Translations under genes and position numbers: made by a program | Source of the DNA: Thraustochytrium sp. TN22 | Lineage: Eukaryota > Sar > Bigyra > Thraustochytrida > Thraustochytriidae | NCBI GenBank assembly: GCA_013306675.1 | Contig: JABLUY010000267.1 | Location: forward strand, 1 to 46,139 | DNA length: 46,139 bases | Direction: 5' to 3' | Notes under the pieces: generated by a model | The model's database searches: none | Seen by the model: the letters and a program-made list of their open reading frames with translations, nothing else | What the model was told of the DNA's origin: nothing | In this document: piece by piece, positions 19,906-42,029 of the stretch | How positions within the stretch are numbered: the stretch's first letter is position 1 | Layout of the letters: every line of letters starts with the position of its first letter

Positions 19906-21792
19906 TTACTCGTCGTTGTCGTTGTCGCCGTCGTCACCGGCCACCTCACGCAGAGCAGCCTCCACCTCGGCCCAGACATCCTCCTTGGACTGGAGACCGT
20001 CCACCTCGACGGTGACGTCCTCGTAAAAGCCGCGGATCGCGTCAATGTTCTTGTGGAAGGCCTTGACGCGCACCTTGACCTTCTCCTCGGTGTCGTCCGC
20101 GCGCTGCACGACGCGATCCTCAATCTCGGGCGGCGGAGGGTTGAACTCGACGTGGTACGAGTTGCCGGTCTCGGGGTCGACGCGGCGGCCCACGACACGC
20201 GCCACGAGGGCCTCGTCCGGCACGTTGAGCATGAGGAAGACGTCGACCTCGATGCCAAGCTCCGCAAGCGCCTCTGCCTGCGCCTCGGTGCGAGGAAAGC
20301 CGTCGAGCAAGAAGCCCCGCTCACGCACATCGTCCTGGTCCAGGCGCTCCTTGATTGCGGCGATGACGATGTCGTCCGGCACAAGCTGGCCGCTCTCCAT
20401 AAGCGCCTTGGCCTTCTTGCCGACCTCAGTGCCGGCGGCCACCGCGGCGCGCAGCATGTCGCCCGTGGACAGGTGCACGAGCCCAAAGGCGTCGCGGATG
20501 AACTCGCACTGCGTGCCCTTGCCCGAGGCGGGCGCGCCGGAGATAATGACGCCGAGCGGGCGCTTGCCGGCAGCTGCGGCGGCCTCGGCGGCGGCCTCGT
20601 CGCCCTCCGCGCCCTCCTCGCCCGTGACCAGGCGCAACGCCGCCTCCACCTCGGCCCAGACGTCCTCCTTGGACTGCATGCCGTCCACCTCGACGGTGAC
20701 GCCCTCGTAAAAGCCGCGGATCGAGTCGATGTTCTTGTGGAAGGCCTTGACGCGCACCTTGACCTTCTCCTCGGTGTCGTCCGCGCGCTGCACGACGCGG
20801 TCCTCGATCTCGGGCGGAGGAGGGTTGAACTCGACGTGGTACGAGTTGCCGGTCTCGGGGTCGACGCGGCGGCCCACGACACGCGCCACGAGGGCCTCGT
20901 CCGGCACGTTGAGCATGAGGAAGACGTCGACCTCGACGCCGAGGTCAGCGAGCGCCTCCGCCTGCGCGGCGGTGCGCGGGAAGCCGTCGAGCAGAAAGCC
21001 GTGCTCGCGCACGTCGTCCTGCGCCAGGCGCTCCTTGATGGCGCCGATGACGATGTCGTCCGGCACGAGCTGGCCGCTCTCCATGAGCGCCTTGGCCTTC
21101 TTGCCGACCTCGGTGCCGGCGGCCACCGCGGCGCGCAGCATGTCGCCCGTGGACAGGTGCACGAGGCCAAAGGTCTCACGAATGAACTCGCACTGCGTGC
21201 CCTTGCCCGAGGCGGGCGCGCCCGAGATGACGACGCCGAGGGGACGGTTCTCCGGAGCGGCTGGCGCCGCCGCGGCCTCGCCGCCGCGGCTGCCCGACAC
21301 GCGCTTGAGCGTCTTGCCGAACTTGCGCATCAGCGAGCGCGCCGACAGCCGGCGGTCGCCGTGCGACCAGGTGGCCTCCGCCACCTCGCCGCCGCGCCAC
21401 ACGCCCTGCAGCTTGGCGCCCGACGCGTACAGGTACACGCCCGGCCCATCGCGCAGGTTCTCCGCCCAGGAGCCCTCGAACCGGTCCCCGTTCGCGAAGG
21501 TCTCCACGCCCTTGCCGTGCTTCTTGCCAGCCCGCCAGCCGCCATCGTACCTGTCCCCGTTCGGGTACGTGTACACGCCCTTGCCCTCCTTGACGCCCTT
21601 GGAGTACCCCCCCTCGTACACCGCGCCGCTCTTCCACGTGTACACGCCGTGCGCCTTGGCGCGCTGCTCGTCCACCTCTCCCTCGAAGCGGTCCCCGTTC
21701 ACGAAGCGCACCTCCACCAGGCCGGGCCGCGTCAGCGTCGGCCCGCTCTCCTGCGCGCCGTCCAGGTACCGCACGCTCTCCACCTCGCCCAT
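19906..21792 (-). CDS. MORN-repeat protein with two adenylate kinase domains
   Basis: The product is 628 residues. From about residue 25 to 150 it has MORN repeats (FEGEVDEQRAKAHGVYTW, YEGGYSKGVKEGKGVYTYPNG, DGGWRAGKKHGKGVE, FEGSWAENLRDGPGVYLY). Two adenylate kinase domains follow at about 185-390 and 413-618. Each has the P-loop GAPASGKGTQCEF, STGDMLRAAVAAGTEVG, LLDGFPRT, a long-type LID (GRRVDPETGNSYHVEFNPPP) and RADDTEEKVKVRVKAFHKN. Adenylate kinase interconverts 2 ADP with ATP and AMP; both copies keep the visible catalytic residues. MORN repeats usually bind membranes or cytoskeleton, so local energy buffering, for example at a flagellum or cortex, is plausible (inferred). Start MGEVESVRYLD is chosen; the upstream open frame is Arg-rich low complexity. 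Confidence 0.92.
   Translation of the reverse strand: MGEVESVRYLDGAQESGPTLTRPGLVEVRFVNGDRFEGEVDEQRAKAHGVYTWKSGAVYEGGYSKGVKEGKGVYTYPNGDRYDGGWRAGKKHGKGVETFANGDRFEGSWAENLRDGPGVYLYASGAKLQGVWRGGEVAEATWSHGDRRLSARSLMRKFGKTLKRVSGSRGGEAAAAPAAPENRPLGVVISGAPASGKGTQCEFIRETFGLVHLSTGDMLRAAVAAGTEVGKKAKALMESGQLVPDDIVIGAIKERLAQDDVREHGFLLDGFPRTAAQAEALADLGVEVDVFLMLNVPDEALVARVVGRRVDPETGNSYHVEFNPPPPEIEDRVVQRADDTEEKVKVRVKAFHKNIDSIRGFYEGVTVEVDGMQSKEDVWAEVEAALRLVTGEEGAEGDEAAAEAAAAAGKRPLGVIISGAPASGKGTQCEFIRDAFGLVHLSTGDMLRAAVAAGTEVGKKAKALMESGQLVPDDIVIAAIKERLDQDDVRERGFLLDGFPRTEAQAEALAELGIEVDVFLMLNVPDEALVARVVGRRVDPETGNSYHVEFNPPPPEIEDRVVQRADDTEEKVKVRVKAFHKNIDAIRGFYEDVTVEVDGLQSKEDVWAEVEAALREVAGDDGDNDNDE
19952..20565. repeat. 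Internal gene duplication, unit 1 (adenylate kinase domain 2)
   Basis: This unit pairs with 20636-21249 at a constant offset of 684 bp. The two domain-coding stretches are nearly identical at the DNA level over long runs, for example TTCTTGTGGAAGGCCTTGAC at 20048 and 20732. Confidence 0.92.
20636..21249. repeat. Internal gene duplication, unit 2 (adenylate kinase domain 1)
   Basis: This is the partner of 19952-20565. The offset of 684 bp equals 228 codons, so the domain plus its linker was duplicated in frame. Confidence 0.92.
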
Positions 21793-22585
21793 CGCGCCGC
21801 CGCGCTCTGCCGCCGCGCTCTGCCGCGCCGTTCTCGCTCTGCCGCCGCGCGCCTCCGAGTCACCGGGTCGCGCGCGCCGCCTCGCCCGCCTGCCTGCCTC
21901 TGGCTGCCCTGGCGGTCTGCTGCCGCGCCTCGCTCGCCGCCTCGCCCGCTCGCCGCGCGCCGCGCCCGGTGGCTCGCCGCGCCGCGCCTCGCCCCGCCCG
22001 CCCGCCCGCCTGGCCGCGCGCTGGCGCCTTCGCGCAGGGGCCTGCGGTCTCTGCCGCGCGGCGCGCGAGTGCCAGCAGCCTCCCCCTGACGCGCGCGCGG
22101 CGCGTGCACCGAGGAGTCTCACTGTCACTGGCAGGGCTGTAATCATTGTAATGGTCAGGGGCGCCACTGCCAGGCTGCGCAGGCTGCGCAGGCTGCAAGC
22201 CTCTGCGCGCGCGGCGAAACTGGGCGCGCGCTTGCCGCGACAGACGCGGCATGATTAGGCTGGCGAGCGGCGAGGCGAGGCGAGAGGCGAGGAGGACTCG
22301 GAGATGGCTTGTGAGGAGATGGACGCAAGGCGAGGCGAGGCGAGGCGGGCGAGGCGAGGCGAGGCGAGCAGCCGAGATAGCCCGAGACAGCCCGAGAGCG
22401 CCCGAGAGCGCCCGAGACCCTTCGCAGGCCGCTCAGGCTTCGCTCAGGCTCAGCTCATCTGTGAGTCTTGACTACTTAGACCCTGCCGGGCCGAGCGTGT
22501 GCAATCTCGGCGAACACGCGGCTGACGCGTTGCCTCTGGCAGTCTGAGTGAGTGTTGATTCTCTGATTCTCTGATTAGTAGCTAG
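21793..22585. other. 5' flank of adenylate kinase gene with CGAGG arrays
   Basis: No gene is supported. GCGAGGCGAGG-type units occur at about 22260-22370 and CCGAGAGCG units at 22380-22425. The open frame that continues upstream of 21792 on the minus strand encodes only Arg/Ala-rich sequence and is treated as UTR. Confidence 0.5.
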
Positions 22586-24442
22586 CTAGCTCGCAAAGTC
22601 GCCGTCGAAGGAGCGGAAGCCAGCGAGCTTGAAGAGGAAGTAGTAGTCCGTGTCGGGGAGCTGGTGGCACCAGTTCCAGGCGGAGGTGAGGCGGCCGTCG
22701 ATGCAGGAGCCGGCCTCGAAGAAGTTGTCGGCGCCGGAGCCGTCAAAGGCGCGCTGGAAGAAGTCCTGGAGAATGGTCTTGACGGCGTCCTCCACGGAGC
22801 CGAAGCGGGCCTGCACGAGCTTGACCAGCGCCGGGTCTTCCGGGAGCTGGTTGGTGATGTACTTGAGGCAGCTCACGAGGGCATTGAGGATGCGCGGAAC
22901 CTGGTTGTACTTGTCGATGAAGAGCAGCGCGTTGGGCACGTTGGTGTCGCCGAGGTGGATGACGCTGGAGCCGACCCAGCCCTCGACACTGTGGCCCAGG
23001 CGCTGCTGCACGGCGTAGAGGATGCCATGCATGGCCTTGGAGGTGCGCGACGCGGCTTGCAGGCGGTGCGTGCCCTGGCCCGTGTTGCGCAGCTTATAGG
23101 GCGCCTCCGGGTCGAGCAGGTCCTGCTCCGCGAGACTCCACAGACGGAACATGTCATGCACAATCTCGCGCCAGAGCGTGAGCGACTGCAGCACGTACAG
23201 GTACTGGCGCTCGTGCGTGTGCGTGAGGCGCGACCCAGACTCGCCGCCGTAAATGGCCAGCGACCACTTGGACGCCGCGGCGTCCGCCCCCGAAAAGTGC
23301 TCCTTGAGCAGAGAGATGACGTAGTCGATCGGCTTGCAGTTGCTGTTCAGGTAAGAGGTGTTATCGCCCAGGCTGTACAGGCAGCGCTTGATCTCGTCCT
23401 GCGAAGCATCCGACGCGCCGCTCGACTTGCAGTACTTGCGCGCGATGAAGTCGATCGCATGCTCCTTGAGCTTGATCTCGCGCCGAATCTGCGGCCGCGT
23501 CTTGCCATCCGGCAGGATCTCCATGGTGGCCGTTGAGATGTACTCGTCGTGCAGCACGTCCAGAGCCTTCTTCTGCTCCAGGAGCTGGTACACTGTCTTC
23601 ATGGGAATCACCAAATCGAAGCCCAGCTGATCCCGCACCTCCGGTACCATGGCATCCTGCAGCAGGTAGATCATCTTGCCGTAGGTCCCGCGCATCTTCT
23701 CCGGATTCATCACCTTGTAGCGCCGCCCCACCTCGAAGACGCGCCCAAACGTCGACTTGTACTTGGCGAAGTTCCGGTCCTCCACCAGCTCCTGCGCAAG
23801 GTGATACTTGTAAGCTGTCGCGACGCCCGTTAGCGTCGCCCCGACGCACTTAATGAGCGTGTGCAGCCGACGCGCCTCCGACTTGAACTCGCGCCCGTCA
23901 ACCACATTCGCGTAGTCGCTCGACCGCATGATGGCGTGCACGAGCCGCAGCCGCGGCCGCTCCTCATACTCGAGCCGCAGTGGCACGAACTGCGCGCGCT
24001 CCTCGTACCACGTGCCGATCTGCTGCTTCGCTTCCTCGCTCAGCGACGCCCCCGCCTCCCCGACCAGCCCCATCGTTAGGGTCGACACCAGCCCACGCCC
24101 AGTGCTCTGCCCGCCCAGCGCGCGCTGCGCCTCCGATCGTTGCTCGTCTAGCAGCGCCTGGATCTCGTCCATTGTCAGGTACGTCTCGTCCTTGTGCTCC
24201 TCCGCCAGCATCGCAGACTCCTTGCCCTCCTGCTGCCGCTGCACCTTCTCAGCGACCTGCCGCGCGCTCTCCTCGTACATGCGAAGCGCGTCGTCGTCCT
24301 CCACAAACCGCCCGCCGCCGCGCCCGTCCTCCGCAACTGCATCTTCTTCCTCCTCCATGCGCTTCGCCTCCTCCTTGCCCTCCTTGCCCTCCTTGCCCTC
24401 CTTGCTCTCCCGGCCCGCGCCCGCAGACGCTGACGCTGACGC

Positions 24443-24526
<84 letters not shown>

Positions 24527-24787
24527 TGAGGACGAAGACGATGAGGACGAAGACGAAGACGACGAGGAGACCGCCGCCGCGACAGCAGCTGCCGCGTCAG
24601 CGTCCTCCCCCGAGCGCGGCCCGTCGGCGGTCGAGGTGCGCGCCATGGTCGTGTCGCCGCCCTCGACGTCCATGGGCTCCGCCGTGTTTGCGCTGGCCGC
24701 CGCCGAGGGCGAGGTGCTGCGACGCCTCGCCACCGAAGACACGTCCGCGTCCACCTCCATGCGCTGCGCCTTGGCGCCCGCACGCAT
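22586..24787 (-). CDS. DUF2009 / UPF0652 family protein
   Basis: The product is 733 residues in a single exon. The C-terminal two thirds (about 255-733) match the conserved eukaryotic DUF2009 family: WYEERAQFVPLRL, then FEVGRRYKVMNPEKMRGTYG, KMIYLLQDAMVPEV, and HLGDTNVPNALLFIDKYNQVPRIL. The molecular role of the family is not established. The N-terminal 250 residues are disordered: a Ser tract at about 74-113 from a TCG-coded triplet array, KEG repeats (KEGKEGKEGKEE), then acidic and coiled-coil-like sequence (ARQVAEKVQRQQEGKESAM). The start at 24787 is the first ATG. The conserved part is intact and of normal length. Confidence 0.9.
24444..24524. repeat. (GAC)n trinucleotide array inside DUF2009 gene
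   Basis: About 27 perfect triplets are followed by imperfect GAC/GAT/GAA triplets to about 24570. In the gene's frame (minus strand) they read TCG, that is serine; on the other strand they would read aspartate. Confidence 0.97.
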
Positions 24788-40268: not shown

Positions 40269-41614
40269 ATGGAGGTGGTGCTGCACGTGTACGACCTGAG
40301 CGCAGGCATGGCGCGCACCATGTCGCAGTCGATGCTTGGGTTCCACGTGGACGCCGTCTACCACACGGGCGTGCTGGTGTTCGGGCGCGAGTACTTTTAC
40401 GGCGGCGGCATCCAGCGCATGGAGCACGACCAGGTGGTGCGCCAGTTTGGCCTCATGCCGGTGGAGCGGCTCTCGCTGGGCACCACGAGCAAGACGCAGG
40501 AGGAGTTCCACAACTTTCTTACCAGCATTAACGCGGACTTCACGCCTGACCGCTACGACCTCTTTCACAACAACTGCAACAACTTCTCCGACGCCGTCGC
40601 CAAGTTCCTCCTCGACGGCCAGGGCATCCCGTCCCATATCGTGGAGCTGCCTAGCCGCGTGCTCAACACGCCGCTCGGTCAGATGATCGCGCCCATGTAC
40701 CAGAGCATGCAGCAGCGCATGCAGGCCGACATGATCCCCTTCAATCAGGCAGTGCCGAGCGGCGCCGCGGCCGCCACCACGAGCGCTGCGCCGCCGCCGG
40801 CCACCCCTCCCGCCGCCGCCGCCGCCGCCGCCACCACCACCGCTGCGCTGGCGACGGACGCGCTTGCGCTGGGCGCAGACGCTGAGGCCGCGGAGGCGGC
40901 CGCGGCGGCTGATGGCGGCATCGAGCTTCGCGTCAAGATCTCAACGCAGGAGCACCCGGTAACCCCCAAAGTGCGGTCCATGGACGCGACCGTTGCCGAG
41001 CTGAAGCGCGCCGTGGCGCGCGTCTCCGATTACGCGGCCGGCGACCAGCGGCTCATCTTCAAGGGCCAGTTCCTCAAGGACGACGACAAGGCGCTCTCTG
41101 CCTACAACATCCAACAGGACGAGGTCATTCACATGGTGCCCAAGCCGGGCTCGGGCGCCAGCAGCAAGGGCGGCGCGGCTGCCGCGAGCGGGGCGGCGGC
41201 GGCGGATGCCGCTGTGGACCCGCTGACGGCCAGTCTTGCCAAGCTGGACCAGGCCCCGGCCAAGGACCGCACCGTGGCGCTCAAGACTCTGCACAAGATC
41301 GTGCAGAATCTCATCGACTTCCCTCTCGAACCCAAGTACCGTAAGATCAAGCGGTCCAATCAAGCCCTGGCCAAGCGTCTTGCTGCGCCAGGCGCCATGG
41401 ATTGCCTCCTCGCGCTCGGCTTCAAGGAGGAGACGGACGCTGGCGAGGAGCTTCTCGTGCTCGAGGCCACGCAGGAGGCCTGGCAGAAGGTGGTGGACGG
41501 CCACGAGAGGCTCGCAGGCCTTTTGAGCGCTGGCGAGCCGCGCGCCGCGCCGTCCGGCGCCGGCGCGCCCGGTGCGGCGCCCGCGCCTGGCGCCAACCCG
41601 TTTTCCGCATTCTC

Positions 41615-41646
<32 letters not shown>

Positions 41647-42029
41647 ATCCCATGGCTGCGCAGATGATGCAGTCGATGGCGGCCAACCCCGAGCTGCTGC
41701 GCAGCATGCTCCAGATGCCCCACGTGCAGCAGATGGCGCAGAGCAACCCCATGCTCGCGCACTCTTTGCGGGAGTTCGCTGAGCACCCGGAGCGCCTGCA
41801 GTCCATGATGCAGAACCCGGCCGTCCAGGCACTCATGAACAATCCTGGCTTTGCCAGCTCTATCATGGGCGGGGTCGGCATGCCAGGCATGCCAGGCATG
41901 CCAGGCATGGGCGGCAGCAGCGGCAATGGTGGCAACGGAGGTGGCAACGGTGGTGGTGGCGAGGACTCGCAAATGACCGAAGAGGAGATGATCCAGGAGG
42001 CCATTCGCCGCTCTCTCCAGGAGCAGTAG
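40269..42029 (+). CDS. PPPDE peptidase fused to UBL, PUB, STI1 and UIM domains
   Basis: The product is 586 residues in a single exon. Residues 1-140 are a PPPDE (DeSI-type) cysteine isopeptidase domain with His32 in YHTG and Cys103 in NNCNNFS, the expected catalytic pair. After an Ala-rich linker come a ubiquitin-like domain (about 218-295; VAELKRAVARVSDYAAGDQRLIFKG), a PUB/PUG-type domain (about 326-418; LKTLHKIVQNLIDFPLEPKYRKIK) and Met/Asn-rich STI1 repeats (about 461-534; NPELLRSMLQMPHVQQM). A C-terminal UIM follows (EEEMIQEAIRRSLQEQ). DeSI enzymes remove SUMO or ubiquitin. UBL binds the proteasome, PUB binds p97/CDC48 tails, STI1 binds clients and UIM binds ubiquitin. A ubiquilin-like shuttle with its own protease is the natural inference. 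Start MEVVLHVYDLS matches the family start; the upstream frame is noise. Confidence 0.93.

Follow-up and report, generated by a model that had tools for sequence, protein, structure and literature searches.

Introduction

The PPPDE peptidases, whose founding paper is reportedly that of Iyer in 2004, include DeSI-1 (DESI1), which we take, from the combined wording of published passages, to be the same protein as POST, the partner of UBIN (UBQLN4). A literature search for PPPDE proteins as thioesterases yielded nothing usable. Passages of one report describe DeSI-1 as a homodimer that is only minimally characterised and has one assigned substrate (PMC10919355). According to a second, a review, K48-linked polyubiquitinated proteins exit the nucleus in a CRM1-dependent manner via UBIN together with NES-containing POST (PMC7824755), and a third, a classification paper, states that DeSI-1 takes part in the UBIN/POST system (PMC10318531). 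The two chains of that system, separate proteins in humans, one of DeSI-1 type and one of ubiquilin type, are reported to act jointly on polyubiquitinated proteins, whereas at the locus described here both types lie on one chain, in which a UBA is not found and PUB and UIM parts are added. CRM1-dependent export is a feature of the described system; the fused protein is known here from its sequence.

The initial annotation of this locus knew of no protein combining PPPDE, UBL, PUB, STI1 and UIM parts. An open-access literature search likewise found no description of the architecture (subscription journals and architecture databases lie outside its scope), but the claim of unfamiliarity has to be qualified by the reports that place a DESI1-type protein and UBQLN4 in one system. 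Searches for relatives gave eight pattern matches in viral contigs and 14 in prokaryote genomes, none of them confirmed, and no match in phages; these viral, prokaryote and phage collections are silent on eukaryotes and thus on how frequent such proteins are there. Fungi have PPPDE-thioredoxin-PUL proteins, in which PPPDE is joined, together with thioredoxin, to a domain that binds the Cdc48 tail; that domain is PUL and not PUB, and UBL, STI1 and UIM are absent. No text on this fungal architecture was found in the open-access search.

Results

A single reading frame encodes five parts

The window is the whole 46,139-nucleotide stretch that was analysed, which is the entire contig C185 of a 37.9 Mb genome in 453 contigs. 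The one intact frame claimed in the initial annotation is present, with 586 codons followed by a stop and with no internal stops, and it encodes in order PPPDE, UBL, PUB, ubiquilin-type STI1 and a terminal UIM-like helix (Table 1). Because the open frame extends upstream beyond the ATG, the start codon is a predicted one, based on the ATG context GCGCCATGG and on the match to the solved chain 3ebq, which starts at residue 3. A Pfam scan of the protein listed 11 families, four above the curated cut-off and seven sub-threshold, and the UBL, PUB and STI1 parts named earlier are all recovered above cut-off by profile search. In NCBIfam all three listed matches are sub-threshold, and Rad23, which covers residues 238–332, ranks first among them.

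GC content by codon position across the five domains is 0.61–0.71, 0.33–0.41 and 0.79–0.92 for the first, second and third positions, respectively. All four linkers are in frame and free of stops, with abundant Ala, Gly and Pro, and three of these Ala/Gly/Pro-rich linkers have a GC content of about 0.8. The sole intron donor of the GTRAG form, the form that the scan covered, falls within the conserved PUB motif KYR. A single-sequence AlphaFold model of the whole chain has a mean pLDDT of only 48.5 and is good only in most of PUB, with the STI1 and UIM helices middling; a model of residues 1–293 (PPPDE-UBL) is poor and uninformative (mean pLDDT 37.3).

Table 1. Features of the 586-residue protein and their positions in the window.
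Feature	Residues	Positions	Strand	Basis
Complete reading frame		40269..42029	+	Intact ATG to stop; similar codon periodicity across five domains
PPPDE domain (Peptidase_C97, DeSI-1-like)	2–144	40272..40700	+	Pfam E 7.1e-38; 62/143 columns identical to 3ebq
Ala/Pro/Thr-rich linker	156–215	40734..40913	+	In frame; GC 0.81; GTRAG donor absent inside
Ubiquitin-like domain (UBL)	216–292 (Pfam core 238–292)	40914..41144	+	Pfam E 3.2e-12; alignment to ubiquitin
PUB domain	323–410 (Pfam 333–401)	41235..41498	+	Pfam E 1.5e-17; AlphaFold; Foldseek
Ubiquilin-type STI1 region	456–535	41634..41873	+	Pfam UBQLN1 (462–501) E 6.6e-9; STI1-HOP_DP (507–530) sub-threshold
C-terminal UIM-like helix	571–585	41979..42023	+	Consensus match; not listed by Pfam

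The PPPDE head retains its catalytic residues

The head of the protein matches the permuted papain-fold profile Peptidase_C97 with 130.3 bits against a cut-off of 29.2 and is 43% identical to the DeSI-type solved chain 3ebq. His32 (40362–40364) and Cys103 (40575–40577), the dyad named in the initial annotation, align with His40 and Cys110 of 3ebq and would presumably correspond to His38 and Cys108 of DeSI-1. Their neighbourhoods, VYHTG and NNCNNF, are intact. The residues required for the predicted catalysis are in place, and the deconjugating activity proposed in the initial annotation is to that extent consistent with the sequence. The domain also shares the LPS-VL-TP-GQ tail of the solved DeSI-1 chains (3ebq and 2wp7), which are 168–170 residues long and belong to a protein described as a homodimer in the passages cited above, whereas here the domain heads a chain of 586 residues. 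A SUMO-interacting motif was considered and rejected, its sole pattern match (IVEL at 124) being part of the PPPDE domain.

The genome-wide six-frame search with the PPPDE profile yielded three candidates and from these two matches, of which one, the frame described here, is over the cut-off. The other is a 26-bit piece, below cut-off, on contig C122, where more exon-like pieces (HTGVQIGSREY and YNLVNQNC) can be read by eye in another frame, so C122 probably carries a second, intron-split PPPDE gene. A six-frame search ignores introns, and further split copies could be missed by it.

The UBL and STI1 parts resemble ubiquilin

The UBL keeps the residues of an Ile44-type hydrophobic patch, I263, H288 and V290, which we take to be the equivalents of ubiquitin I44, H68 and V70. 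It lacks the C-terminal Gly-Gly, and its reading as a processed ubiquitin precursor was rejected. Over 50 residues it is 44% identical to the same genome's own ubiquilin, and it lies behind the PPPDE domain, not at the N-terminus. The STI1 region matches the ubiquilin-specific model UBQLN1 with 35.8 bits (cut-off 27), with XPC-binding (E 0.0011) and STI1-HOP_DP (E 0.02) sub-threshold. The order of UBL followed by ubiquilin-specific STI1 is that of ubiquilin/Dsk2, which the protein differs from in having PPPDE in front and PUB between the two. No UBA was listed for it by Pfam at E ≤ 10, whereas the separate canonical ubiquilin of this genome (UBL-UBQLN1-UBA, contig C94) gives a UBA at 6e-9 in a comparable scan; the protein is therefore not classed as a ubiquilin. 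All stramenopile species characterised so far are stated, in a passage of PMC4230246, to have a single ubiquilin gene.

The UIM assigned in the initial annotation stands as a consensus match but not as a profile match. The consensus, in a strict form, occurs once in the protein, in three of 20,000 shuffles of the whole chain and in eight of 200,000 shuffles of the tail, and a six-frame translation of the window (92,274 residues) contains it nowhere else. Pfam does not list a UIM at E ≤ 10, but most weak short matches are removed by the HMMER filters. In the PDB the tail is closest to a RAP80 UIM, though not significantly so (E 0.42). Client holding by STI1 and ubiquitin reading by the UIM are plausible functions for these two parts.

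The PUB pocket departs from the standard motif

The PUB fold is well supported: ten-residue blocks 321–350 and 371–420 of the AlphaFold model reach pLDDT 80–88, whereas blocks 351–370, which hold part of the pocket, reach only 61–73, and Foldseek aligns the model with the PNGase PUB domain 2hpl at a target TM score of 0.79 and an rmsd of 2.2 Å. The pocket that binds the PUB-interacting motif (PIM) is given in a passage of PMC6995525 as Y-x-x-N(x)9-Y plus K/R-x-x-N. Here it reads I-x-x-N(x)9-Y and K-x-x-N (I344, N347, Y357, K361 and N364), so that four of five positions are kept and the first tyrosine is Ile344. In the alignment PNGase Y38, N41, K50, Y51, R55 and N58 face I344, N347, K356, Y357, K361 and N364, respectively, Y38 being the one without a like counterpart. 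For SPATA2, which has Val at the first-tyrosine position, the same source reports that no binding to PIM peptides was found (PMC6995525). Docking to p97, as claimed for the PUB domain in the initial annotation, is for these reasons weakened and uncertain in its simple form, although the fold itself is confirmed.

A PUB profile search of the genome returned 15 matches, 10 over the cut-off, and 12 were examined. Among 12 aligned PUB regions, including the one described here, the first-tyrosine position is Tyr in three, Ile in four, Val in two and Met, Ala or Leu in one each. This lineage may have another way of using the PUB pocket; alternatively, the Cdc48 tail may not be a ligand of many of these domains. 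The CDC48 profile TIGR01243 gave 27 matches, none over its cut-off, and neither a CDC48/p97 gene nor its tail was found among the six loci read. Judged by eye, these six are presumably two AFG2-like genes and one each of PEX1-like, PEX6-like, NVL-like and Rpt-like type.

A thioredoxin-headed sister and other PUB proteins

Searched with the whole protein, the genome yields as its second-best match a sister on contig C235, consisting of thioredoxin (E 8.6e-21) with a WCGPC motif, a UIM-like stretch recognised with a looser pattern, UBL and PUB. The two proteins are 31% identical over UBL and PUB (E 3e-12, computed for a two-sequence database with the low-complexity filter), and in the sister's pocket, YVKN..Y..RQGN, every position is standard. 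The ubiquilin STI1 model was not listed for the sister (Pfam, E ≤ 0.05), so that only UBL and PUB are securely common to both. The different head suggests a UBL-PUB chassis that is swappable among quality-control enzymes. The last residues of the sister (G000:C235:8044-12294, minus strand), DDLDDLDDIYAD, resemble a PUB-interacting motif (D-hydrophobic-Y); judged from this tail, the sister might dock on PUB proteins, even on the protein described here.

Other PUB matches lie in varied contexts. At G000:C44:85290-88469 (minus strand) a PUB domain, which scores 35.8 bits against a cut-off of 34.3, stands between Pex14_N and KPWE domains in a peroxisomal docking protein that may bind Cdc48 or a similar ATPase. 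Two further proteases of the ubiquitin/SUMO-linked kind have PUB regions: a WLM metalloprotease with PUB at G000:C105 and, at G000:C440, an OTU protease whose PUB-like region reaches 28.9 bits and so stays under the 34.3 cut-off. At G000:C410:98222-103105 an open frame of 6937 codons contains EF-hand-like stretches, recognised by eye, and matches the PUB profile three times, once over the cut-off. Elsewhere in the window, the minus strand carries DUF2009, which Pfam names a non-canonical E2 ubiquitin-conjugating enzyme, at 22586–24787 (E 5.6e-181) and MORN repeats with two adenylate kinase stretches at 19906–22146.

Discussion

By analogy with the described system, the fusion most likely puts the known DESI1-UBQLN4 partnership on one chain. 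Since UBQLN4 with POST, and DeSI-1 within the UBIN/POST system, are reported in the passages cited to act on polyubiquitinated proteins, the fusion would be of the Rosetta-stone type. The reading we judge best, though at no more than even odds, is a DESI1-ubiquilin factor on a single chain, with ubiquitinated or SUMO-ubiquitin proteins as its clients. The partnership is favoured by the five-part frame with both catalytic PPPDE residues and the I44/H68/V70-type patch of the UBL, by an STI1 region that matches the ubiquilin-specific model beside a UBL with 44% identity to the genome's own ubiquilin, and by the fact that this is the only above-cut-off PPPDE frame found in the 37.9 Mb genome by a six-frame search, which can miss split genes. 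It is weakened by the undetected UBA, by the PUB pocket without its first tyrosine, and because no NES can be assigned: generic NES patterns match at eight start positions, which are uninformative because each lies inside the folded PPPDE or PUB domain. The genome keeps its separate canonical ubiquilin, so the protein would be an extra, specialised body.

The observed fused frame, domain identities, catalytic and pocket residues and sister protein are compatible with a mechanism in which we infer every binding and catalytic step. A DeSI-1-type cysteine isopeptidase would be fused to a ubiquilin-like receptor (UBL and STI1) with PUB inserted between these two parts and a UIM in place of the terminal UBA. 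The UIM would read the client's ubiquitin, STI1 would hold the client's exposed hydrophobic stretch, and the UBL would pass the complex on to a UBL reader, be it the proteasome or a different one. Through PUB the complex could dock on a PIM protein, either the Cdc48 tail or some other, although this contact may be weak or may involve an unusual ligand. PPPDE might trim SUMO or ubiquitin; it might also, or instead, play the carrier role that DESI1/POST has beside UBQLN4/UBIN when proteins are exported from the nucleus. A more elaborate version, which we consider rather doubtful, is a one-chain UBIN-POST machine, for which the lineage would have joined a second ubiquilin body, supplemented with PUB and UIM, to DESI1 and assigned the DeSI-1-type catalysis to client shuttling, the thioredoxin-headed sister doing a redox step on the same UBL-PUB chassis.

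The main rivals to the partnership are a pair of Cdc48-tail enzymes and a non-catalytic carrier. The first is an unlikely alternative, in which docking on the Cdc48 C-terminus, not ubiquilin-style shuttling, would be the defining feature, and the PPPDE protein and its thioredoxin sister would process clients leaving Cdc48 from a shared UBL-PUB chassis. It draws on the alignment of the sister over UBL and PUB, on the sister's WCGPC motif and fully standard pocket, on the WLM-PUB enzyme and the OTU protease with a sub-threshold PUB-like region in the same genome, and on yeast, where the SUMO-linked protease Wss1 is reported to act with Cdc48 and the Cdc48-tail cofactor Doa1. Against it stand Ile344 in the pocket of the PPPDE protein, given the SPATA2 result, and the ubiquilin STI1 model, which is matched in this protein and unlisted for the sister. 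The fungal PPPDE-thioredoxin-PUL proteins would be a parallel to such a pair, and would make PPPDE with a Cdc48-tail binder an already known kind of protein.

Slightly less probable still is that PPPDE is a non-catalytic carrier or scaffold and the protein a transport receptor for polyubiquitinated proteins, cleavage being incidental. POST is described as the NES-containing export partner of UBIN (PMC7824755), which agrees with such a role, but a pure carrier need not keep H32, C103 and their surroundings intact. An artefact, either two adjacent genes or an assembly join at one of the GC-rich linkers, where assemblies can fail, is very improbable and both forms were rejected, given the stop-free frame kept through all four linkers, the like codon periodicity on both sides, the only GTRAG donor (the one form scanned) within KYR of PUB, the sister, in which a different N-terminal domain precedes UBL and PUB in the same order, and a PPPDE half for which the six-frame search found no second above-cut-off match in the genome.

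A fusion found naturally in a distant eukaryote would lend independent support to the view that DESI1 and ubiquilins share clients, and it offers a single protein that can be purified to test cleavage, ubiquitin reading and docking together.
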